IMG/VR virus record: IMGVR_UViG_3300008448_000676
Span: 1-23,305 of that record
Origin: a virus
Length of the DNA stretch: 23,305 nucleotides
Direction: 5' to 3' (one strand)
Below, piece after piece: positions 2,299 through 18,353 of this stretch. The notes beneath the pieces are model-generated. The model did no database searches and was not told where the DNA came from. It saw only the letters and a program-made list of their open reading frames with translations. Every line of letters begins with the position of its first letter. Within the stretch, counting starts at the first letter, position 1. Position numbers and translations under genes: made by a program.

Positions 2299-3054
2299 AT
2301 GAGTGACTTATTCGGTGGACTATTCGGCGATACTAAAGAAACAGAAGTTAACTATTTGCCTGAACAGATTGGCGATATTCAAAAGACTAATGAATTTAGA
2401 CAAGGCACAATGATGCCTTTTAGCAAGGATTACCTAGGCAAATTAAGCAAAGGCTACGAAGAAGGCCTAGCAGGTATTAACAAAGCCGCACAAGGTGGCG
2501 CAGGTTATGCTGGCCAAGTTGGACAAACATTAGGCGAGACAGGCGAAAGCGCGGCTCGCACAGGTGTAGCAGGTCTTGAAAGTTTCTTTAATCCACAATA
2601 TGGACAAGAACAATTCGCGGCTGCTATGCAACCTATTCAAAGCCAATACCAAACTAACCTTGCTAACCAAGGTGCTACATTCGGTGGCGCAGGACAATTA
2701 GGATCAGCACGTCAAGCCTTAGCAGGCACACAACTTGCAGGTCAAACACAGGCTGCACAAATGCAAGCAGCCGCAAATGTTATGCGTGATTTGAACCAAC
2801 AACGCTTACAAGCAGGACAATCATTAGCCGGTCTTGCTCCACAGTATTTCGGTCAAGGCATGACAGCAAAGCAACAACAATTAGGTTATGCTCAAGCCCC
2901 GACAGATTACTTGTTAAGCACGTTAGGCAAAGGCCAACAATACGTGCCTGGTCAATTGTATACAGCGCAGTATCCAGGCCAGCAAGGATCGACTACGTCA
3001 AACAATCCAAGTCTGTTTGATATTGGCGCGAAGATCCTACCGTTCTTCTTATAA
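2299..3054 (+). CDS. Putative internal virion / DNA ejection protein
   Basis: The 251-aa protein is rich in Gln, Ala and Gly and predicted largely helical, with a repetitive central region (LGSARQALAGTQLAGQTQAA, about residues 135-155). This resembles small ejection or pilot proteins of short-tailed phages, which are expelled with the DNA to help form a conduit through the cell envelope. No catalytic motif is visible. It has a good Shine-Dalgarno sequence (AAAAGGAAAA before ATG) and follows a late-type promoter. It is directly followed by the transglycosylase-containing protein and a third Ala/Gln-rich protein, a three-gene arrangement like the ejection-protein sets of P22- or T7-like phages. 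The ejection role is inferred from composition and context; a tail-associated structural role is the alternative. Confidence 0.6.
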   Translation: MSDLFGGLFGDTKETEVNYLPEQIGDIQKTNEFRQGTMMPFSKDYLGKLSKGYEEGLAGINKAAQGGAGYAGQVGQTLGETGESAARTGVAGLESFFNPQYGQEQFAAAMQPIQSQYQTNLANQGATFGGAGQLGSARQALAGTQLAGQTQAAQMQAAANVMRDLNQQRLQAGQSLAGLAPQYFGQGMTAKQQQLGYAQAPTDYLLSTLGKGQQYVPGQLYTAQYPGQQGSTTSNNPSLFDIGAKILPFFL

Positions 3055-3069
3055 TAAGGATTTAATACA

Positions 3070-5790
3070 ATGGCAGAATATGATGTAATGGGCAATTATA
3101 CAGGTTATGATGATAGTTATGGTTATGATACCGGCTATCCTGCTGAACCCGTAGCACCAACAGGCCCACAATTTTATGATGACTTTGGTAATCCTGTTGC
3201 CAATGCTGAAGAAGAACGCCGTCGTCGTGAAGAAATGGAACGACAGATTGAAGAATATCGTAAGCAACAAGAGAAACTAGGTAGCGAAGTCACTAACAAG
3301 CAAGAAGTCACGACTTATGCAGATGGTAGTCAAACAATTACTACCAAGCGTGAAGTGCCTGGTAAGCAACCTTTACAACCAGTTGCTCCTGTCATGCAGG
3401 ATCAAGAAGGTTATAATCAGCGTATTGCACAGCAAGAAAGTGGCAATAGACCGGATATTGGTTACCACAATCAACAATTAAGTTCAGCGTATGGTCCATA
3501 TGGCATTACGCAAGGTGCATACGAGGATGCTCGTCGTGCAAATCCTGCGTTACCTGCTGACATTCGTCAAGCAACACCAGAACAAATGACAGCGGCACAA
3601 AATGCTGTCACACAAAACAACGCAAGATACTTACAAAGTTATGGAGTTCCTGTAAATCAAAACACATTACAGGCTGCTCACTTCCTAGGTGCCAAAGGTC
3701 TAAGCGAATTCTTAAAGACTGGTTATATCAGTCCTGCGGCCGCAAGGGCAAATGGCGGTGAAGAAAATGTTCGCCGTATTGTTCAACAGCGTTTAGGTGG
3801 CCAGGCTGCTCCTGCGAGCGGTGCAGTTCGACAACAACTTGTTCAAGGCGAACAAGGTGGTATGCCAACACAAAAGCCTCGTTTAGAACCTGTTAGTCCA
3901 GAAGCAGTAGCACAACCTGCACCACAGGCTGCACAACCTAAAATGGAGCCAAACAGTTTTGATGAGTTTGGCACTCCTGTGTTTAGTCAAGCGCAAGCAG
4001 ACTTAGACAAGAATTTAAAATCATTTGAAGCAATTCAAAATGATCCTAAAGCATTGATGAACTTTGAAGGTCCAGAATGGATGCAAAGCAATGCCAAAGC
4101 ACGTGCCGCAGACATTTTAGCCAATGAGCGTGAAAATCAAAAGGCACAAGAAAAATTAAGCACAGCGACCCCAACTGACTTGGCTCGTTATCTACAAGGT
4201 AAAACAAAGTCAGGCGAAGATTATAATCTAGCAACTCGTGTTCGTGCTATGTTATTCAGCGCCGCAGGTCAAAAAGAACTTGCAATGCGTGAATGGAACA
4301 AATTAGACACAGTAGGCACTGACAAATACGTGCAGGGTCCTGATGGCAAGCCATATCTAGTTCGTCAAAGAGCAGATGGTGAGATTATGGGAGGCTTTAA
4401 TGCTGAAACAGGCAAGGCCTTAAATGCTGAAGAATTAGTTAAAGTAGGTGCAGGCGTAACAGGTGCTGCCAAACTAAACATTGTCGGTGGAACTTATGTC
4501 AATGACAAGACAGGTGAAGTTGGTCGTGTTATAACAGATGAAAAGACTGGCGTAAGTTATATTCAAACTGACACAGGTCGCAAGCCAATGACTGGATTCC
4601 GTCCGCAAGGTCAGGCTGGCACAATGGATATGCAACGTGCTCAACAAATCCAAAAACAAAATATTGATTTAGCCGGTGATTGGGCTAAACTACAAATGAA
4701 AGTGCAAGGTGCCGCTCCAGAAGCCGCTAATAAGTTCTTAGGTGAATTTAACGCTAAACATGGCACAAACTTTGGCCTAGCAAGTGTAAGTGGTAGTGCA
4801 CCACAAATCGATATGACTACTGGTCAAATGATTCAGGCTGCACCAACAGCAGGTGCTCCACAAGCACCAACAGCCGTTGCGGCACCAGCAGCCGCAGTTA
4901 CAGCACCTGCAGGTCAAAAGCCTGGCGCTGTTACAGCAGTAAGTCCAGCAGATTTAGAAGCACAACGCGAACGTGAAAAGAAAGAACGTGAAGCCGGCTT
5001 AGAAGTTCAAACCACAGAGCAAAAAGAATTTGTAAAAGAAACTAAACCAGCAGTTGGTCAAACAGCCGGTGATGGACAAGCGGTTGCAAATGCACGTCGT
5101 CAACAATTAGATATTATTAAACGTAATCCAAGCATTGTTAATATTATGAATGGACAAGGCACACAGTATGATCAAGCCCGCCGTATTATGATCAATGCTG
5201 TTAGTGGTGCATATGGCGCAGAAGAACGCCAACAGTTAGCCAACGATCTAAGTCAAGTTATGAACAAGTTGACTGAAAGTGAACAAGGCGCACTACAAGA
5301 ATTCGTTAACTTGAATACTGTAGTTAATGCTAAAACACTTCGTGCTAACGCAGGTCCAGGTGCTGTTAGTAATGCTGAACAACAGGCAAACAAAGATGCC
5401 AATATTGGTAACGTTGATCGTATTCCTGCGTATGCGGCATTGGCTGGATTGCATCGCAGTCAATTTACCGGAGATCTTGCGGCAAGCAAACAAGCATTCT
5501 TGGCTGATAATCCGCAGATCAAAACTACAGCAGAATTTAATAGCGCATGGCAAAAGCAAGAAGCATTACGTCTCAAAGAATATCAAGCAATTGCCAAGGC
5601 TAGGTTTGATATTATGGGTCGCGCACCTGAAACAAACGCTAGCCCTGAAGCAATTAAAGCATACAGAGACCGTGTGTTCCGCGCATTTGAAGCATATCCT
5701 GCTCCACAATTCGATCCGGCTACTGGTAAATGGAACTATCAAACAGCAAATGCTCGCAGAGCGGCAATGGCAGCAGTATTAGGACAATAA
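3070..5790 (+). CDS. Internal virion protein with lytic transglycosylase domain
   Basis: This 906-aa protein carries an SLT/lysozyme-fold domain at about residues 112-220. IAQQESGNRP supplies the probable catalytic Glu (E123), followed by AYGPYGITQGAY (residues 140-151), the counterpart of the family's glycine-glutamine motif, and LQAAHFLGAKGLSEFL (200-215). Such domains cut peptidoglycan glycan strands locally so that the ejectosome can cross the wall. A charged probable coiled coil (about 45-72) precedes it. The remaining ~650 residues are Ala/Gln/Pro-rich, with a low-complexity stretch of alternating Ala and Pro near residues 590-625 and no recognised catalytic motif. The start has a TAAGGA Shine-Dalgarno sequence. 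Size, domain order and flanking Ala/Gln-rich genes fit a large ejection protein; T7 gp16 and P22 gp16 are functional analogues rather than assigned homologues. Confidence 0.8.
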   Translation: MAEYDVMGNYTGYDDSYGYDTGYPAEPVAPTGPQFYDDFGNPVANAEEERRRREEMERQIEEYRKQQEKLGSEVTNKQEVTTYADGSQTITTKREVPGKQPLQPVAPVMQDQEGYNQRIAQQESGNRPDIGYHNQQLSSAYGPYGITQGAYEDARRANPALPADIRQATPEQMTAAQNAVTQNNARYLQSYGVPVNQNTLQAAHFLGAKGLSEFLKTGYISPAAARANGGEENVRRIVQQRLGGQAAPASGAVRQQLVQGEQGGMPTQKPRLEPVSPEAVAQPAPQAAQPKMEPNSFDEFGTPVFSQAQADLDKNLKSFEAIQNDPKALMNFEGPEWMQSNAKARAADILANERENQKAQEKLSTATPTDLARYLQGKTKSGEDYNLATRVRAMLFSAAGQKELAMREWNKLDTVGTDKYVQGPDGKPYLVRQRADGEIMGGFNAETGKALNAEELVKVGAGVTGAAKLNIVGGTYVNDKTGEVGRVITDEKTGVSYIQTDTGRKPMTGFRPQGQAGTMDMQRAQQIQKQNIDLAGDWAKLQMKVQGAAPEAANKFLGEFNAKHGTNFGLASVSGSAPQIDMTTGQMIQAAPTAGAPQAPTAVAAPAAAVTAPAGQKPGAVTAVSPADLEAQREREKKEREAGLEVQTTEQKEFVKETKPAVGQTAGDGQAVANARRQQLDIIKRNPSIVNIMNGQGTQYDQARRIMINAVSGAYGAEERQQLANDLSQVMNKLTESEQGALQEFVNLNTVVNAKTLRANAGPGAVSNAEQQANKDANIGNVDRIPAYAALAGLHRSQFTGDLAASKQAFLADNPQIKTTAEFNSAWQKQEALRLKEYQAIAKARFDIMGRAPETNASPEAIKAYRDRVFRAFEAYPAPQFDPATGKWNYQTANARRAAMAAVLGQ

Positions 5791-5791
5791 T

Positions 5792-6685
5792 ATGGACCAA
5801 CAAGACATTGAAAAATTAAGAGCCGCGGGTTATACTGATGATGACATCCGTGATTATATGGCTAATCAGCCTAAAGTCAGCGGTGCGCCGACACAAACCG
5901 AAGCAGAAACATTGCCTGAGATTGATGTTACTAAACCTAGTGATACATTAAAGCAAGCAGAAGCCGCAGGTGTGCCGATCGGCGCAAGAGAAAGCAGTAT
6001 AATTAGTGATGTTGCTACAGCCGCTCCTGTTGTGTTAGGTGAAAACGTTGGCAAAGTAGCATTAGGTGCAGGTGGTTTAGGTGCTGCCTATGCTGCCAAT
6101 CAAGTTCGTAAAGGTATGCAAGCACGTGCCGCATCCGGCGCCGCTCAAGCAGCCGCTCAGGCAGCACAAGCACAAGCCGCAATGGAACAAGCACGTGCCG
6201 CGCAACAGGCAGCACAAGGTGTTCAACAAAGATTTGAAGCAAGAGCAGCCGCTCAAGCCGCAAGAGCAGTTCCAACAGGTCCACAAATTCTAGATGCCGC
6301 AGGACGTCCAATGGCTCCTAGTGCGCCGGTTGCTCCACAAGGTCCAGTAAGCACAGGTCCAGTTGCTCCAAGTGCAACAGCACCAATGGCACAACCTGCT
6401 CCACAAGCACAACCTAGCATGTTAGATAAAACAACTAACATGATTCGTCAACTTGCCGCTAACAAAGTATTCAATACAATGGCCAAAGCCGGTGTTGGAG
6501 CCGCAGCCGCATTGACTCCTGGTAATGTTGGACAAGACTATATGGTCCCACAAACAGGTAGAATGAGGGGCATGGAGATAAATCCTATGACAGGCCGTCC
6601 ATGGACTAGAGAACAGTTACAGGCCTATAGTGCCAACCCTGCTATGTATGATCAAGCATTGGGTCAAGCGCAAATGCCAAGATAA
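5792..6685 (+). CDS. Putative Ala/Gln-rich ejection protein
   Basis: The 297-aa product opens with a short helical motif, IEKLRAAGYTDDDIRDYMAN (residues 6-25), of a kind seen at the N-terminus of phage internal proteins. Residues about 84-102 (GKVALGAGGLGAAYAANQV) could be a weak membrane-interacting segment. The centre (about 103-165) is an almost pure Ala/Gln/Arg helix, then a Pro/Ala linker, then a C-terminal region with GMEINPMTGRPWT. It begins two bases after the stop of the transglycosylase gene, so the two are tightly coupled. Context and composition support a DNA-ejection or internal-core role; no enzymatic motif is seen. Confidence 0.6.
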   Translation: MDQQDIEKLRAAGYTDDDIRDYMANQPKVSGAPTQTEAETLPEIDVTKPSDTLKQAEAAGVPIGARESSIISDVATAAPVVLGENVGKVALGAGGLGAAYAANQVRKGMQARAASGAAQAAAQAAQAQAAMEQARAAQQAAQGVQQRFEARAAAQAARAVPTGPQILDAAGRPMAPSAPVAPQGPVSTGPVAPSATAPMAQPAPQAQPSMLDKTTNMIRQLAANKVFNTMAKAGVGAAAALTPGNVGQDYMVPQTGRMRGMEINPMTGRPWTREQLQAYSANPAMYDQALGQAQMPR

Positions 6686-6694
6686 GGAAATGAA

Positions 6695-7126
6695 ATGACA
6701 ACAGCAGAATCACTACAAGAAGTATTCTATAACAACTTCACTGCATACTATCGCAGTCATGTAGCACACGTAAACGTCACTGGTAGAAACTTTGCCAGTG
6801 ACCACAAACTATTGCAAAAAGTCTATGAAGATCTGCAGGAACAAATTGATCGTCTTGCAGAATTGCTACGCACCATTGGCGAATACATGCCTTGCGAAAT
6901 TCAATTTGTATTAGATCAAAGCACAATTGGCACCGGCATATTTGAAGGTGATAGCATTGAACTAATCACAGGCGTTCGCAATGATTTAGATACACTAAAA
7001 GATTTTTATGATGATTTGATGTTAACTGCCGAAGCAGAAGGACATCAAGAAATTGCCAACTACGCACAAGATAGAATTCTTGCGCTGGCAAAACATATTT
7101 GGATGTTAGACGCTACATTAGAATAA
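6695..7126 (+). CDS. dps: Dps-like ferritin-superfamily protein
   Basis: The 143-aa protein matches the Dps family, which oxidises and stores Fe(II) using peroxide in a 12-subunit shell and protects DNA. Candidate ferroxidase residues are H25, H37, D52 and E56; their spacing (12, 15, 4) is identical to E. coli Dps H51, H63, D78, E82. The equivalent of E. coli D67 is Q41, and the tryptophan usually after the first histidine is V26. The C-terminus (KHIWMLDATLE) matches the usual Dps final helix. It lacks the long Lys-rich N-terminal DNA-binding tail of E. coli Dps. The start has a strong AAGGAA Shine-Dalgarno sequence; an upstream ATG at 6690 reads only two codons before a TGA that overlaps the true ATG. 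It is the last gene of the ejection-protein unit. Family is fairly certain; role (host oxidative protection, or virion/DNA protection) is inferred. Confidence 0.82.
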   Translation: MTTAESLQEVFYNNFTAYYRSHVAHVNVTGRNFASDHKLLQKVYEDLQEQIDRLAELLRTIGEYMPCEIQFVLDQSTIGTGIFEGDSIELITGVRNDLDTLKDFYDDLMLTAEAEGHQEIANYAQDRILALAKHIWMLDATLE

Positions 7127-7221: not shown

Positions 7222-7731
7222 TCAAAATAATGTAGTAGCAGTGTTAGATAAATCAATTCGTTTATAACCTACACCACCACGCACTAGATATCCTGCTTGT
7301 TCGTGTAAGCGCATAAATGCAGTTTGTTCCTGTCTAATACTGCTACTGGCAATAACAGAACAATTTGTAATTTTTGCAAACTGTTCCCAAATTGACAACA
7401 TATCTTTTACAAGGAGAATACGACAACGAACACCTAGATCCGGATCAACATGTGCAATGCGAACATTGACTATTGTTTCTCTGCTCCACATACCTTTTTC
7501 GCCACCTTTGGCCCAAGTATAACCTAAAAGATTATTATTGGTATCACGAGCAACAGCAACCAAATCACTGTATCCTGTATAATATTGATTGATAATGGCA
7601 GAAGTAATGTTATGTGCAAACACATTAACATCGACTGTAAAGATAGGGTCTATTTCGTATTGATATTTTACGCTAAGATTAACTAATGCTTCTGCATCAG
7701 GTAAATGTGCGTAAGTCCAATTGTAATTCAT
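7222..7731 (-). CDS. GNAT-like acetyltransferase
   Basis: The 169-aa protein fits the GNAT N-acetyltransferase fold: an N-terminal helix-rich substrate region, central strands (LVAVARDTNNNLLGYTWAKG, 57-76), then VRIAHVDPDLGVRCRILL (90-107) where the acetyl-CoA motif would sit, and a C-terminal FMRLHEQAGYLVRGGVGYKR (139-158) typical of the final GNAT strands. The canonical (Q/R)xxGx(G/A) loop is not evident, so activity is uncertain. GNAT enzymes transfer acetyl groups from acetyl-CoA to amines; the substrate here is unknown. It is the only minus-strand gene, with its own Shine-Dalgarno sequence (AAAGG, 7 nt before the ATG) and a T4-late-like TATAAGTA upstream on the minus strand. Its isolated reverse orientation suggests a separately acquired accessory gene. 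Confidence 0.65.
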   Translation of the reverse strand: MNYNWTYAHLPDAEALVNLSVKYQYEIDPIFTVDVNVFAHNITSAIINQYYTGYSDLVAVARDTNNNLLGYTWAKGGEKGMWSRETIVNVRIAHVDPDLGVRCRILLVKDMLSIWEQFAKITNCSVIASSSIRQEQTAFMRLHEQAGYLVRGGVGYKRIDLSNTATTLF

Positions 7732-7757
7732 TGCCGTGCCTTTCGTGTAAAATTCCT

Positions 7758-7765
7758 ACTAAATA
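7758..7765 (+). promoter_or_regulatory. T4-late-like promoter ACTAAATA (leaderless geometry)
   Basis: ACTAAATA ends exactly 5 nt before the ATG at 7771. In T4 the late motif occupies about -13 to -6, so the first transcribed base would be the A of the ATG. No Shine-Dalgarno sequence precedes this start, which is consistent with a leaderless mRNA. Confidence 0.55.
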
Positions 7766-7771
7766 CTTATA
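7764..7771 (-). promoter_or_regulatory. Possible divergent T4-late-like promoter TATAAGTA
   Basis: The reverse complement reads TATAAGTA, one base from TATAAATA. It overlaps the plus-strand ACTAAATA box and points to the acetyltransferase gene. T4 spacing would start transcription near 7758, leaving a leader of about 27 nt containing the AAAGG Shine-Dalgarno sequence. Confidence 0.35.
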
Positions 7772-8112
7772 TGACAGAAGAAAAGAAAAGCAAAGGAAAA
7801 AATGGGGGAGCCCGCCCAGGAGCAGGTCGCCCTAAAGGTTCTACGAATTCATTGTCTATTGCAGGCTTACTAAATCAAGTATATGCACAAAGCAATGGAC
7901 AAAATTATGAAGAATTGTTAATACGTGACTTCTTAGAAGCCCGCGATAGTCATGACAAACAGTTATTGTTAAAGTATCACAACTTGATACTGAACAAAGT
8001 AATGAATAGTCTAGCAAAGATAGAGGTTACAGACAGCGCGGATGCTGTTGAAGCCAAAAAACTAGCATTCGCAGAAGCACTGGCCAAACTGACCGGTGTA
8101 AAAGAGGAATAA
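7771..8112 (+). CDS. GGARPGAGRPKGS-motif protein, possible small terminase or DNA-binding protein
   Basis: The 113-aa product begins MTEEKK, followed by a basic glycine/proline-rich segment GGARPGAGRPKGS (12-24) and a helical remainder. This N-terminal motif is common in phage small terminase subunits and other DNA-binding phage proteins, where it resembles an AT-hook. The same frame is open upstream to 7705, but an upstream start would overlap the divergent acetyltransferase gene and bypass the promoter-like box that ends 5 nt before 7771, so 7771 is preferred. No Shine-Dalgarno sequence is present. TerL is 3 kb away rather than adjacent, so the TerS role is only a possibility; a general DNA-binding protein is the alternative. 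Confidence 0.7.
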   Translation: MTEEKKSKGKNGGARPGAGRPKGSTNSLSIAGLLNQVYAQSNGQNYEELLIRDFLEARDSHDKQLLLKYHNLILNKVMNSLAKIEVTDSADAVEAKKLAFAEALAKLTGVKEE

Positions 8113-10991: not shown

Positions 10992-12605
10992 ATGCTGGGC
11001 ACAGAAACCATAATGGCACGTGCCTTGCGTTATGTTATTGACGAGCACGATTTAACTATTGATGCTCTCAAAACTATTCCAGGCCCATTAAAGAATCAAC
11101 TGCAAGACTTTGCTATCTCAGTAGCAGAAGACATGAAGTATAACAGCCTAAAATATTTTAGGCCATTTGAACATCAGCGTAAGTTCTTTAGAACTGGCGA
11201 TGCGGATCGTAGAGGCATATTGGCTGCTAACCGTGTTGGTAAAACAGTTTCAACTTGTTATGAAACAGCCATGCACTTAACTGGCTTATATCCAGATTGG
11301 TGGGATGGTTATCGCTTTGCCAATCCTATTACTTGTATGGTAGCAGGTGAAGGTTGGTCGCAGGTTGCTCTTGTATTACAAAATGAATTGCTAGGAACGC
11401 AGGATGTTAAGATTACAGAGAATTTGGGAACTGGTGCAATACCTCGTGATTGCATTGTTGTTGATACCATGCGTAATGATGGTGCTAACTGTATCGGTGT
11501 TGAGATACGCCACAAATCAGGTGCTAACAGTTATCTCCTATTTGCCAATTATACGCAAGAAGTCCGCCAACTACAGGGTTTCAAACTTAATTTGGCTGTG
11601 TTTGACGAGCAGCCACCAGATGATTTTTTCAGTGAAGTGGTTACGCGAACTGCTACCACACAAGGTAAGGTCCTTTGTTCGTTTACACCGCTTAAAGGCT
11701 TAAACGGACTTGTATCAAAGTTCTGGAACAAAGAACCCGGCTACGAATTCATTCGTGTAAGTTGGGATGATGTGCCTGAATACAGTCCATGGGGCGAACC
11801 ATTCTTGCTAATGGAAACACGCAGACAATTGGAACGTGATTACTTACCACATGAGCGTGAGGCTCGTATTGCAGGTAAGCCAGTTATGGGTAAAGGTGCT
11901 GTATTCCAATTAGGCAATTGGCCTACATACAAAACAGGAGAATATAATTTCTCTGTTATGCCCAATATACAGCGAGTTATCGCACTTGACTTAGGACTTG
12001 TAAATGACAAAACAGTTATCAGTCTCATGTATTGGGACCCATATGAAAGAACTGCGTGGCTACATAGACAAATTGTGGTGCAAGGCGTGGAAGAGGCTGT
12101 GCCTACTCAGTATGTTAACCATTTACTTCGCCCTGAGGTGTTTGGTTGTCCTATCGTTTTACCTAGTGATGCATCTACTCCTGGCAGATACACTATGAGT
12201 AGTGAAAGTATTCGTGAACTATTTCAGGGATACGAATTAAATGTAATAGACGATCCTATTATGAATCCGCCCGATCCACAGGGGCGTAAAACTAATCACA
12301 AGAGTTATGGTATAAACCAAATGCGTCAAATGTTAGAAGTTGGCGCACTAATGGTCAATGAAAATTGCAGTCATTTCTTAAGTGAAGCACAGAATTATTT
12401 CGTAGATGAAAAAGGAAGATTTAGTGATCCGGATGACTGCATTGACAGTTGTCGCTATGCTTTGTTGGCTTGTCTCCAAGGCATTGCTGAACCATGGGAT
12501 AATCGCAGTCCTGCAGAACGCATGAGAGCCCAAAGAGACAGATATGTAACTAGAGATTACACAAATAAACCAGCATGGAAACAAGCATATGACCCAAACA
12601 ATTGA
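10992..12605 (+). CDS. terL: Terminase large subunit
   Basis: The 537-aa protein is the ATP-driven DNA-packaging motor and nuclease. Walker A is ANRVGKT (79-85), Walker B is LAVFDE (201-206) with D205 and the catalytic E206, and the coupling motif is SFTP (230-233). The C-terminal RNase H-like nuclease shows the first acidic residue in VIALDLG (D333), a second candidate in LPSDAST (D393) and a third cluster in SDPDDCIDS (D481/D482). Length is normal for the family. The start is supported by AGAGGA 5 nt upstream; a downstream ATG at residue 8 is the alternative. It docks on the portal encoded 370 bp downstream of its end. The stop overlaps the following small gene by 17 nt. Confidence 0.95.
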   Translation: MLGTETIMARALRYVIDEHDLTIDALKTIPGPLKNQLQDFAISVAEDMKYNSLKYFRPFEHQRKFFRTGDADRRGILAANRVGKTVSTCYETAMHLTGLYPDWWDGYRFANPITCMVAGEGWSQVALVLQNELLGTQDVKITENLGTGAIPRDCIVVDTMRNDGANCIGVEIRHKSGANSYLLFANYTQEVRQLQGFKLNLAVFDEQPPDDFFSEVVTRTATTQGKVLCSFTPLKGLNGLVSKFWNKEPGYEFIRVSWDDVPEYSPWGEPFLLMETRRQLERDYLPHEREARIAGKPVMGKGAVFQLGNWPTYKTGEYNFSVMPNIQRVIALDLGLVNDKTVISLMYWDPYERTAWLHRQIVVQGVEEAVPTQYVNHLLRPEVFGCPIVLPSDASTPGRYTMSSESIRELFQGYELNVIDDPIMNPPDPQGRKTNHKSYGINQMRQMLEVGALMVNENCSHFLSEAQNYFVDEKGRFSDPDDCIDSCRYALLACLQGIAEPWDNRSPAERMRAQRDRYVTRDYTNKPAWKQAYDPNN

Positions 12606-12816: not shown

Positions 12817-12951
12817 ATGGGAAAAGGAAGCAATCCACGCCCTTTTGAAGTTCCTAAAGAAGAGTTTAGGAATAACTGGGACAAAATATTCGGTAAGAAG
12901 GATCCTAAAGAAGATAAGCCGCAGCCGCCTAGTCAAAAAGACGCTAAATAA
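12817..12951 (+). CDS. Conserved 44-aa phage protein (MGKGSNPRPF type)
   Basis: This short gene encodes a 44-aa product starting MGKGSNPRPFEVPKEEFRNN and continuing WDKIFGKK before a basic tail. Very similar mini-proteins occur in many short-tailed phages, usually near head genes; their function is not established. Expression is well supported by a strong AAGGAG Shine-Dalgarno sequence 5 nt before the ATG. Its coding region overlaps an upstream open extension of the portal frame, which is why the portal start is placed downstream. The GCTAAATA promoter box for the portal lies inside its last codons. Confidence 0.8.
   Translation: MGKGSNPRPFEVPKEEFRNNWDKIFGKKDPKEDKPQPPSQKDAK
12943..12950 (+). 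promoter_or_regulatory. T4-late-like promoter GCTAAATA
   Basis: GCTAAATA, within the shared core ACGCTAAATA, overlaps the last codons of the 44-aa gene and lies 26 nt before the portal ATG. The following bases, ATACTAT, resemble the downstream part of the extended T4 late consensus (TATAAATACTATT). Confidence 0.6.
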
Positions 12952-12976
12952 TACTATAATAAGGAAACACCCTTCT

Positions 12977-15271
12977 ATGTTAGATATTAAACACATACCG
13001 GTTCAAGACATTAATCAAAACGTTAAGCAGAACGCTACGTTTGTCCGCATGAAGAACCAAATGGACGTGAAGATGGCGTCTTACTTACGTTATCTCGGAA
13101 CAAAAAATGCTGTGAACCGCGCCAGTGATTATCACTACTTGTGTTTAGCAGTTACAGATTCTACTGCTCCGGTTAACGGCATTGACTACATTCACCCAAG
13201 CGTAAAACCTGTTGTTGATTATGCAACAGCAGTTATTGCCAAAGGACTAATGCCTAATGGCACTATTAACTTTGAGTTTGTTGCCGATGGTGAGTATGAT
13301 GAAGTAGCCGCACGTCAAGCAACAGATATGGTTAGCAAAGTTGTTAACCAAATGAATGATCCACACTTTATTCTAGAGCGTTGGGTTATGGATGCCGCTA
13401 TGCACAAAAACGGTATGATGATGATCAAACCTGTGCGTGAACAGATCACTCGTTATGTCGAAACAGAAGGCACCTTAGAACAACTTAAGGCATTTGAACT
13501 ACAGGCAGCAGAAAGTGGCCTAACAACACTGCGCCAAGGCAAACGTAAAATTAATGTTAACATGCAGGCAGTTATGGCAGAAATGCAACAACTACTTGGT
13601 GAACAACAACGAGAATTTGCCGGCGAAATGTTAGATCAACACATTGCCAACTTGCGTGAAGCACCAGAAGAAACTACAATGGAATCTATGGCTGCTGAAT
13701 CTGCAGAAATGATGGCAGGTAATTTAGAAACGCAAGAAGATATTATCAATGATGCGATTAGACGCAACACAATTTATAAAGCCAAGTATAAAGTTACTGG
13801 CTACATGTTAAACATCAAATTCCATCCTATTGCACAGCACTACTGGATCTGTGATCCTACTGTGCCAGAGATGAAGGATCAACCATTTTGTGGTTACTAC
13901 GATCCAATGACAATTCAGGAAGCAACAGAACTATATCCTGACATTAAAGACAACTTAGAGGCATTTGAACAATTTGCCGAATACAACATGAACGGTGCTT
14001 ATCAAGCAGGTAGCGTTCTAAACAACTTGGCAATCCACGCTCGCGACAGTGTGCCTGTTATGGGCATTCCAGTAAGCAGTGCGGCAAGTGCAGATCCAGA
14101 CAGCAGACAAGTTAGTATCGTCACAGTATGGAACAAATACGACATTGACGGCGATGGCGAACTTGAACTAATTGAATTGATTTACAGTGGCAGTTATATT
14201 ATCAGTGCCCGTGAAGTAGAGTTTATTCCAGTTGCTAATATGTGTCCAAAGCCTTTACCTGGTAACTTCTACGGCATGAGTATCGCTGAATCGGTTATCC
14301 CGATGCAGGAATACGCAACAAGTGCGGCTCGTGCCGAAATTCAATTGGGTCTGTTAACTGCCACTCCCCGTATTGGTGTTAAGCCAGATAGACTTGACTT
14401 TGAAATGTTGCAGGATGGTGAAGCCGCTATCTTTATTTTAGATAGTAAGTTTGATCCACAGAAAGACATTTACCAAATTCCTCCTCCAAGTGGTAACTTA
14501 AACTTCTTGGAAACAAGTATGCAACGCATACAACAAGATACTATGGCCATGGTTGGTATGACTACTCCTCAGGATGTATTCAATCCAGAAGTTATGGCTC
14601 CAGGTAACAGCGGTGTTAAATTGCAAATGGCATTAACACCAAACCAAATCATTCAAGACAACACAGTTCGTAATAGCGCAGAAGGTTTGAAAGAAGCACT
14701 ATACTTGGTATGGCGCACATTGATTCAATTCGGTGATGACTATGGCGTTAAGAAATTGGCTGCAAGTTGCCACCCAGATAAGCAACCAGAATTCCTAGAC
14801 TATAAAGCATGGGATGAAATGACTGACTTATGCGATCGCAAGCAAATCCATTTAGAACTTGCAGTCGGTATGATGAGTGAAGAAAATCAATTGGGTCGTT
14901 TACAATTAATCCAAAAAGCACAAACTGGTTTATATCAGGCTATTCAAGGTATGGTTGCTAACGGCACAATGACACCTGAAATTTACAAGAAGGTTAAAAA
15001 GCCTTATGAAGATACATTGTATGTTCTAGGTGTTAAAGATTGTAATGTTTATTTGCCTAGTGATGAAGAAGTTGCTAAGATGATTAAACAAGCACAAGAA
15101 GCCGGTAAGAACAAACAACCAAGTCCAGAAGATCAACAGAAACTTGCAAGTGCTGGTTTAGATGCTGCCAAGACAAAACAGATTATGGCAGAAATCGAAG
15201 GCACTGATCCTGAAACACAATTGAACTACATGTCAATTGCCACAGGACATGCACAAGACTATGGTCACTAA
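12977..15271 (+). CDS. Portal protein (P22-type)
   Basis: The product is 764 aa from the ATG at 12977. Portals form the dodecameric ring at one capsid vertex through which TerL threads DNA and to which the tail attaches. Size matches the P22 portal class (725 aa), as do LPGNFYGMSIAESVIPMQEY, TATPRIGVKP and the helical C-terminal region ending in a Gln/Lys-rich barrel-like tail. Residues 389-400 (DIDGDGELELIE) fit a 12-residue EF-hand-type calcium loop. The frame is open back to 12845, but that extension overlaps the well-supported 44-aa gene; 12977 has an upstream AAGGAA (12 nt spacing, slightly long) and a late-type promoter. Position after terL and before scaffold and capsid genes is canonical. 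Confidence 0.9.
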   Translation: MLDIKHIPVQDINQNVKQNATFVRMKNQMDVKMASYLRYLGTKNAVNRASDYHYLCLAVTDSTAPVNGIDYIHPSVKPVVDYATAVIAKGLMPNGTINFEFVADGEYDEVAARQATDMVSKVVNQMNDPHFILERWVMDAAMHKNGMMMIKPVREQITRYVETEGTLEQLKAFELQAAESGLTTLRQGKRKINVNMQAVMAEMQQLLGEQQREFAGEMLDQHIANLREAPEETTMESMAAESAEMMAGNLETQEDIINDAIRRNTIYKAKYKVTGYMLNIKFHPIAQHYWICDPTVPEMKDQPFCGYYDPMTIQEATELYPDIKDNLEAFEQFAEYNMNGAYQAGSVLNNLAIHARDSVPVMGIPVSSAASADPDSRQVSIVTVWNKYDIDGDGELELIELIYSGSYIISAREVEFIPVANMCPKPLPGNFYGMSIAESVIPMQEYATSAARAEIQLGLLTATPRIGVKPDRLDFEMLQDGEAAIFILDSKFDPQKDIYQIPPPSGNLNFLETSMQRIQQDTMAMVGMTTPQDVFNPEVMAPGNSGVKLQMALTPNQIIQDNTVRNSAEGLKEALYLVWRTLIQFGDDYGVKKLAASCHPDKQPEFLDYKAWDEMTDLCDRKQIHLELAVGMMSEENQLGRLQLIQKAQTGLYQAIQGMVANGTMTPEIYKKVKKPYEDTLYVLGVKDCNVYLPSDEEVAKMIKQAQEAGKNKQPSPEDQQKLASAGLDAAKTKQIMAEIEGTDPETQLNYMSIATGHAQDYGH

Positions 15272-15310: not shown

Positions 15311-15649
15311 ATGAGAAAACCGTTCAATGATGAATATCATAGACAAAAAGCAGTTGCCAAATATAGAAATATAGATTGGCAACTCACATATGATGAATGG
15401 ATTAGTTGGTGGGGAGAAGATATCGTTAATCGTGGCAAAGGTCCGGGCAAACTGGTAATGGCAAGAAATAACGATGTTGGACCTTATAGTATTGATAACT
15501 GCAAAAAAATTACGCATAGTGAAAATTGCAGTGAAGGTCAAAAAGGTAAAGCGAAGCCTGAGGGTTTTGCTGAAAAGGCCAGAAATTCAATGCTTGGTAA
15601 AATTAACAATCCATATGGACGCAAAGGTAAAGAATTAGTATATGATTAA
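15311..15649 (+). CDS. HNH/NUMOD3-like protein, putative homing endonuclease
   Basis: The 112-aa protein has LTYDEWISWWGED (25-37), then MARNNDVGPYSIDNC (50-64) and THSEN (68-72), a spacing like that of phage HNH-type proteins in which a conserved GPYS-x-x-N segment precedes a helix. The C-terminal GQKGKAKPEGFAEKARNSML (77-96) and NNPYGRKGK resemble NUMOD3, a DNA-binding module of homing endonucleases. A full HNH catalytic set is not obvious (only one or two histidines), so it may be a reduced nuclease or only a DNA-binding remnant. It sits between portal and head genes, with a strong TAAGGAAA Shine-Dalgarno sequence, and overlaps the next gene by 8 nt. A two-codon mini-ORF at 15306 ends over its ATG. 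Confidence 0.6.
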   Translation: MRKPFNDEYHRQKAVAKYRNIDWQLTYDEWISWWGEDIVNRGKGPGKLVMARNNDVGPYSIDNCKKITHSENCSEGQKGKAKPEGFAEKARNSMLGKINNPYGRKGKELVYD

Positions 15650-17174: not shown

Positions 17175-18353
17175 ATGGCAGAAATTACAACCAGTCAAAT
17201 TGGTAACGGCACAACCGCATATGGTAGTGACATCGTTGTCAAGGACTTAGACCTAGATGTGTCTAACAGAGTTAAAGACGATACGCCTATTCTTAATATG
17301 GCGATGTCTAAGAAGCGTAAAGTTAACAGCACTTTACCTCTATGGACTGACGATATCTATCGCACTCCAGCAGTTCAAGCCCAAGTTGAAGGTGCAGTTG
17401 TTAGCACAGCAAATGCTGAAAGCAACAGCCGTTACAACTTAGGTAACTACACACAGATTTTCAGCACTACAATCGCTAGTTCTGGAACTGCTCGTGCAGT
17501 TATGCAGGCAGGTGGTGACCCACAAGCCTATCAAGAAGTCAAGCAATTGATTGAATTGATGTTTGACGTTGAACTACAATTAGTTCGCGCAGACCAGATC
17601 GGCACAAAATATGCTGGTCAAAGCGGTAGTGCTAGTGGCCTACCAAGCGGCCAAACTGGTCGTCGTATGGGTTCTTTGAATGCTTTCGCAGGAACGATCT
17701 CCATCAACGCTGCCGCAGGTAGCGGTTCTCTAAGTGGTGTTGATACTTTCATCAACAACGAAGATACTGACGTAGCAGTTCAAGCAAGTAACGCTTTCCG
17801 TGTTTACGCAAACGGTAGTTCTTTCTTAGGTGGTTCTTTCACTAACCAATTCTTCAGCCCTGCTTTATACAAGCAGTTAGTAACTGTTGCTGAACAGCGT
17901 TACAATGCTAAGATCCGCACTGTTGTTGCTCCTACAAGTCTACGCACTAGTATCAGCGATAACATGCCACAAAGCCGTGGTATCAACCGTGTTGATAGTG
18001 CTCGTGGTGATACAATCAGCACATACGAAGGCGACTTCAACTACACATACGAAGTTTATGATTCTTGGATCATGGACCAAATCAATCCTAACGCTATCTA
18101 CTTCTTGAATGAAGATGTAGTTCAGTGGGGTTCTTTACGTGACCTAGGTCCTAACAACGAAGTATTCAGCAATGCTGACGCTTCTCTAGACCAGTTCATC
18201 ATGGAAGGAACATTGATTGTTCGTAACCCAGCAGGCGTTGGTGTTCTAAACAACATCACAGCAGGCACAACTGCTCAGAGTTCCTTACCTGGCGCTCGTA
18301 ACGCTGCTTATGTAAGCCGCACAAACATCGGCCCTGGCGATGTTACTCCTTAA
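17175..18353 (+). CDS. Major capsid protein (SU10/DUF5309 type)
   Basis: The 392-aa protein fits the SU10 major capsid family (DUF5309), an HK97-fold shell protein. Indicators are the N-terminal pattern DDTPILNMAMSKKRKVNSTL (35-54) followed by PLWTDDIYRTPAVQAQVEG (55-73), the EVKQLIELMFDVELQLVRAD helix (121-140), and a C-terminal region (YDSWIMDQINPNAIYFLNED) with the expected beta content. It has the strongest Shine-Dalgarno sequence of the head genes (AAGGAG) and codon use leaning to a few favoured codons (GGT, AAC, CGT), consistent with high expression. It is followed by an intrinsic terminator, so large amounts of capsid mRNA would end here. Confidence 0.9.
   Translation: MAEITTSQIGNGTTAYGSDIVVKDLDLDVSNRVKDDTPILNMAMSKKRKVNSTLPLWTDDIYRTPAVQAQVEGAVVSTANAESNSRYNLGNYTQIFSTTIASSGTARAVMQAGGDPQAYQEVKQLIELMFDVELQLVRADQIGTKYAGQSGSASGLPSGQTGRRMGSLNAFAGTISINAAAGSGSLSGVDTFINNEDTDVAVQASNAFRVYANGSSFLGGSFTNQFFSPALYKQLVTVAEQRYNAKIRTVVAPTSLRTSISDNMPQSRGINRVDSARGDTISTYEGDFNYTYEVYDSWIMDQINPNAIYFLNEDVVQWGSLRDLGPNNEVFSNADASLDQFIMEGTLIVRNPAGVGVLNNITAGTTAQSSLPGARNAAYVSRTNIGPGDVTP

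Follow-up and report, generated by a model that had tools for sequence, protein, structure and literature searches.

An uncultured podovirus lineage with SU10-type capsid and portal proteins carries the Dps-type mini-ferritin gene as a core gene of its late cluster

Why would a phage encode a mini-ferritin among the genes for its particle? Phage-encoded Dps as such is already known, but the genes have so far been read as host-protecting auxiliary genes; those of gut phages (PMC8008677) and Lactobacillus phages (PMC6669764) were interpreted as oxidative-stress genes. The window analyzed here, a virus genome fragment of 23,305 nt (23.3 kb), carries a dps ORF at positions 6695-7126 of the plus strand. 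On the same strand lie genes for the terminase large subunit (10992-12605; profile match), which was used as the lineage marker, for an SU10-type portal protein (12845-15271) and for an SU10-type major capsid protein (17175-18353), the latter two assigned by Pfam and PHROG. The Dps of this lineage bears on whether phage particles carry iron.

The 6695-7126 ORF starts with ATG and encodes a 143-aa protein that matches the Pfam Ferritin family (PF00210; E = 4e-13, 49.8 bits against a gathering score of 24.5) and PHROG 3636 (E = 2e-25, 90.5 bits). An earlier note on this DNA had called the protein a Dps and had named a profile search beforehand as a possible refutation; the search places it inside the Dps/ferritin family. 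The PDB sequence match was HP-NAP (HMMER, E = 1e-11). AlphaFold2 predicted the monomer confidently (pLDDT 95.7), with helices at residues 3-27, 33-60, 69-75, 87-114 and 118-142. As in Dps, helices B and C are separated by the short helix 69-75, and the four-helix bundle of the model has no fifth helix. The top Foldseek match was also HP-NAP (PDB 1ji4, 3t9j; TM 0.93, 28% identity), and all 50 chains in the VIA-align listing, almost exclusively Dps, superimposed with Z ~20-22 and 1.3-1.7 Å over 140-143 residues. These results identify the product as a Dps/NapA-type mini-ferritin. Judged from the sequence and its relatives, the dps of the window is a real and conserved gene and is probably functional.

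The HMMER alignment to HP-NAP is ungapped in the region of the ferroxidase site: H25 (codon 6767-6769), H37 (6803-6805), D52 (6848-6850) and E56 (6860-6862), all on the plus strand, bear the same numbers in both proteins, and Q41 (6815-6817) is opposite E41. The four ligands correspond to H51, H63, D78 and E82, which we take to be the ferroxidase residue numbers of E. coli Dps. The E. coli spacing reported in the earlier note is therefore present at these positions, and the four residues are unchanged in 45 of 45 non-redundant relatives (<97% identical), down to the most distant ones at ~41% identity (L098, L102 and L108). Invariant columns make up 18 of the first 78, which gives P ~0.002 for four given sites all being invariant. 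The codons of the tetrad vary synonymously (H37, for example, is CAC in 23 and CAT in 22 sequences), and dN/dS for dps is ~0.18, with dS near saturation, showing purifying selection on the gene. By analogy with known Dps, the His/His and Asp/Glu ligand pairs would meet across the subunit interface.

The earlier note had also singled out Gln at the place of E. coli D67. The residue is indeed Gln, and the Asp typical of E. coli Dps is absent from the lineage, where position 41 is Q in 30, G in 8, E in 6, K in 1 and D in none of the 45 relatives. Gln is within the normal NapA-type range. Because cellular NapA-type Dps usually have E or M and sometimes Q at the equivalent position (E 55, M 18, Q 5 and G 1 in the 79 sequences among the matches listed), Gln41 is no sign of lost function, and loss of ferroxidase activity through this residue was rejected. 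The Trp beside the first ligand His, a typical but non-defining feature of the Dps subtype, is absent as well; position 26, Trp in HP-NAP, is V in 35, A in 6, F in 3 and L in 1 of the relatives. Since Trp26 is missing and most members have no carboxylate at position 41, catalysis in the lineage may be slower or altered. The Dps of the window thus resembles HP-NAP and other NapA-type Dps in fold, length and ligand numbering, in having H22 and in the lack of Asp at position 41, and differs from HP-NAP in the absence of Trp26, in Q rather than E at position 41, in its more acidic composition and in being phage-encoded in a late cluster.

The placement of dps in the late virion cluster, proposed in the earlier note, was confirmed and is conserved across related loci. 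The gene begins 9 bp past the stop codon of a 297-aa Ala/Gln-rich ORF (5792-6685, plus strand), upstream of which lies a 906-aa ORF (3070-5790, plus strand). On the other side, a weakly GNAT-acetyltransferase-like ORF (7222-7731, minus strand; PHROG acetyltransferase, E = 0.02) converges with dps, and the next ORF on the plus strand encodes 135 aa (7705-8112). The order common to the 29 loci selected by Dps is homologues of the 2299-6685 region (scored where the contig extends that far), dps, the reversed acetyltransferase-like ORF (26 of 29), the 7705 ORF (29 of 29), terminase and portal. The reversed ORF, which sits inside the rightward late cluster, is missing from L011, L012 and L013. In 46 of 48 loci, dps begins between -4 and +18 bp relative to the stop codon of the ORF before it, and 11 loci show a 4-bp overlap; this closeness and the overlaps suggest that dps is translationally coupled to the upstream ejection-type ORF. 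Near dps, terminator-like sites numbered 4 versus 3.3 (sd 1.8) in shuffled sequences and promoter-like sites 10 versus 6.1 (sd 2.4), the latter 1.6 sd above, and none of either kind was convincing at dps.

The earlier description of the neighbours as ejection proteins is reasonable in view of position and fold, with moderate support. For the 906-aa protein, sequence searches against Pfam, PHROG and the PDB gave no confident match. The best Foldseek matches of its model (pLDDT 65) are six lytic transglycosylase chains of phage phi6 (prob 0.99-1.0, E = 8e-3 to 0.2). The phi6 lysin-like domain together with the position of the gene fits an ejection protein, so that its assignment as a probable internal/ejection protein is moderately supported.

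Several other ORFs of the window were observed in passing. The 333-aa protein encoded at 86-1087 joins a 2OG-Fe(II) oxygenase domain to DUF6817 (HD-like), and is another iron-dependent protein of the same late region, also found in L012 and L013. The 394-aa ORF at 1084-2268 contains a long Asp/Gly/Ala repeat, and its matches between relatives span short parts only; a long His/Arg/Leu-rich antisense ORF (1277-1942) looks like the mirror of this repeat. A 112-aa ORF at 15311-15649 resembles, by eye only, an HNH-type endonuclease; its homologues are positioned differently in L013, L051 and L102, as expected of a mobile gene.

When contigs were picked by terminase irrespective of Dps, dps was present in 35 of the 35 that were long enough to show the site. 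Exactly one ferritin-family match was found in 25 of 28 longer contigs, and the three without a match are fragments ending inside or short of the site. The dps gene is a core late gene of this uncultured podovirus lineage. Since the ferroxidase tetrad is the same in all relatives found and the gene lies among the particle genes, these results suggest that iron/peroxide handling is a fixed part of particle building in the lineage and not an occasional borrowed gene.

The earlier note had raised a host origin as a matter for phylogeny. In a tree of 178 sequences (144 columns, quick search without bootstrap), the Dps of the lineage form one clade (SH-aLRT 100), which shares one side of a 98-supported branch with 65 other viral Dps and 0 cellular ones. 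On the opposite side are 19 viral Dps, including those of SU10 and LAh8, and all 79 cellular Dps, a sample picked by the HxxHWN motif among the matches listed. Because the gene falls inside the phage-side clade, we rejected the idea that it was recently acquired from a host, within the reach of 144 columns, a quick search and a motif-picked cellular sample; dps so belongs to an old phage-side group. The same tree does not support orthology with the Dps of C3 phages. A search for a bacterial source in genome contigs with the lineage alignment gave 213 pattern matches and 0 relatives.

The protein has a charge of ~-15 and a pI of 4.5, and its first helix begins at residue 3. E. coli Dps shares the ferroxidase spacing with the Dps of the window and has D67 and a basic N-terminal tail, whereas the latter has neither. 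Protection of DNA, one of the roles considered in the earlier note, is accordingly unlikely to work through binding, since the protein is strongly acidic and devoid of the lysine-rich tail. A Dps of the E. coli kind that binds DNA and condenses the genome would agree with the label of PHROG 3636, 'DNA binding protein', but this label is a transferred annotation, and the median charge of the lineage is -16, compared with ~-7 for the Dps of cells and of other phages. We regard a DNA-condensing role as very improbable; for an acidic tail-less protein, iron handling is a better fit than DNA coating.

Dps domains also occur near or within head genes of other phages. A motif scan of viral contigs for Dps yielded at least 80 loci. 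Among the matches listed, 4 of 10 long Dps-holding ORFs combine a Peptidase_S78 prohead protease with the Dps domain (L133, L165, L191 and L206), and three more of them have matches to PHROG families of head maturation proteases or portal proteins (L144, L146 and L202). The 114 Dps-neighbour proteins in the loci listed include 11 terminase small subunits (DNA_Packaging) and 11 large subunits (Terminase_6N), which are raw counts with no base rate; the Dps-protease fusions are evidence independent of any base rate. In L129, dps (3411-3846) is flanked directly on both sides by ORFs whose size and location suit the small and large terminase subunits. Loci resembling L129, which represents another phage group, include L139, L143, L150, L190 and L200; most of the loci with flanking terminase genes may belong to a single clade.

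A lineage-fixed Dps with a strict iron site in a late virion operon, together with the independent protease fusions elsewhere, suggests that Dps takes part in building the particle or in protecting it. We consider it likely that the gene provides an iron- and peroxide-detoxifying Dps cage made together with the virion proteins. Four-helix subunits of the HP-NAP kind would assemble into a dodecameric cage with ferroxidase sites between subunits, H25/H37 coming from one and D52/E56 from the other. Such a cage would bind Fe(II), oxidise it with H2O2 or O2 and store Fe(III) inside. Translated with the ejection-type virion proteins, presumably late in infection, it would keep free Fe(II) and peroxide low in the surroundings of new genomes and procapsids or, should it be packaged, within the particle. 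This last option, in which the cage or its subunits are packaged with the internal proteins and either shield the DNA in the particle against Fenton chemistry on the way from host to host or are delivered along with it, is compatible with the detoxifying cage and adds a location. Consistent with it are the apparent coupling of dps to ejection-type ORFs, the fusions of Dps with head maturation protease seen in other viral contigs, and the detection of Dps or ferritin-like proteins in particle or phage proteomes: MS of CsCl-purified Privateer virions detected the Dps of that phage (PMC7881722), the proteome of phage SU10 included 6 peptides of its DPS-domain protein CDS67 (PMC4281155), and the ferritin-like gp217 of Sajous1 was detected in CsCl-purified phage (PMC10892097). 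However, these genes are not orthologues of the dps of the window, and that of SU10 is a middle gene which the tree places on the side of the cellular Dps. Because DNA polymerase was also detected in the SU10 proteomics (PMC4281155), detection there is no proof of packaging. Packaging is thus a serious possibility, though we would sooner expect that it does not occur.

The late cluster position and the fusions to prohead proteases could also be read as signs of an assembly factor without catalysis, a cage or subunit that forms part of the procapsid core or scaffold and whose iron site is a relic, and the missing Trp26 and D41 would agree with this. A relic site should decay, yet H25, H37, D52 and E56 are constant across all 45 sequences, even those with as little as 41% identity; the fused domains of other phages keep the same motif as well, although the search pattern selected for it. 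A purely structural role is therefore quite doubtful. Somewhat less so, but still unlikely, is a host-directed auxiliary gene, in which iron storage would feed or protect the infected cell in an iron-poor or oxidising habitat independently of virion formation, as proposed for the Dps of gut (PMC8008677) and Lactobacillus phages (PMC6669764). The isolate phages examined have Dps among DNA-metabolism or middle genes, whereas the gene is late here, and it is present in every informative contig and not scattered as auxiliary genes often are.

Beyond this lineage, Dps cages might recurrently be brought into or onto the procapsid in tailed-phage head morphogenesis, shielding the packaged genome from iron and peroxide. 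Such a virion-built iron module would be a free coupled gene here and protease-fused or placed between terminase genes elsewhere; we offer this as a tentative idea, with considerable reserve. A literature search, mostly of non-subscription journals, found no published description of Dps-prohead protease fusions. These fusions, and a lineage with a core dps that is coupled to genes of the virion, seem to be new.

Dps is phage-encoded, as in the window, in C3 podophages (SU10, Privateer, 7-11 and LAh_6/8), in Lactobacillus and gut phages and in cyanophages. In contrast to the late gene of the window, those genes occupy middle or DNA-metabolism positions where examined, and the tree groups the SU10 and LAh8 proteins with the cellular side rather than the phage side. 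The nearest annotated genome, Podoviridae sp. ctfne034 (MW202484; capsid 58%, terminase 50%), has related terminase, portal, scaffold and capsid genes but no Dps at this place. It carries elsewhere a short Dps-like DUF5856 protein (L115 18493-18849, corresponding to MW202484 38492-38848), which follows the pattern HLLHW...H...D...E, matches a Dps profile weakly and is located outside the late cluster.
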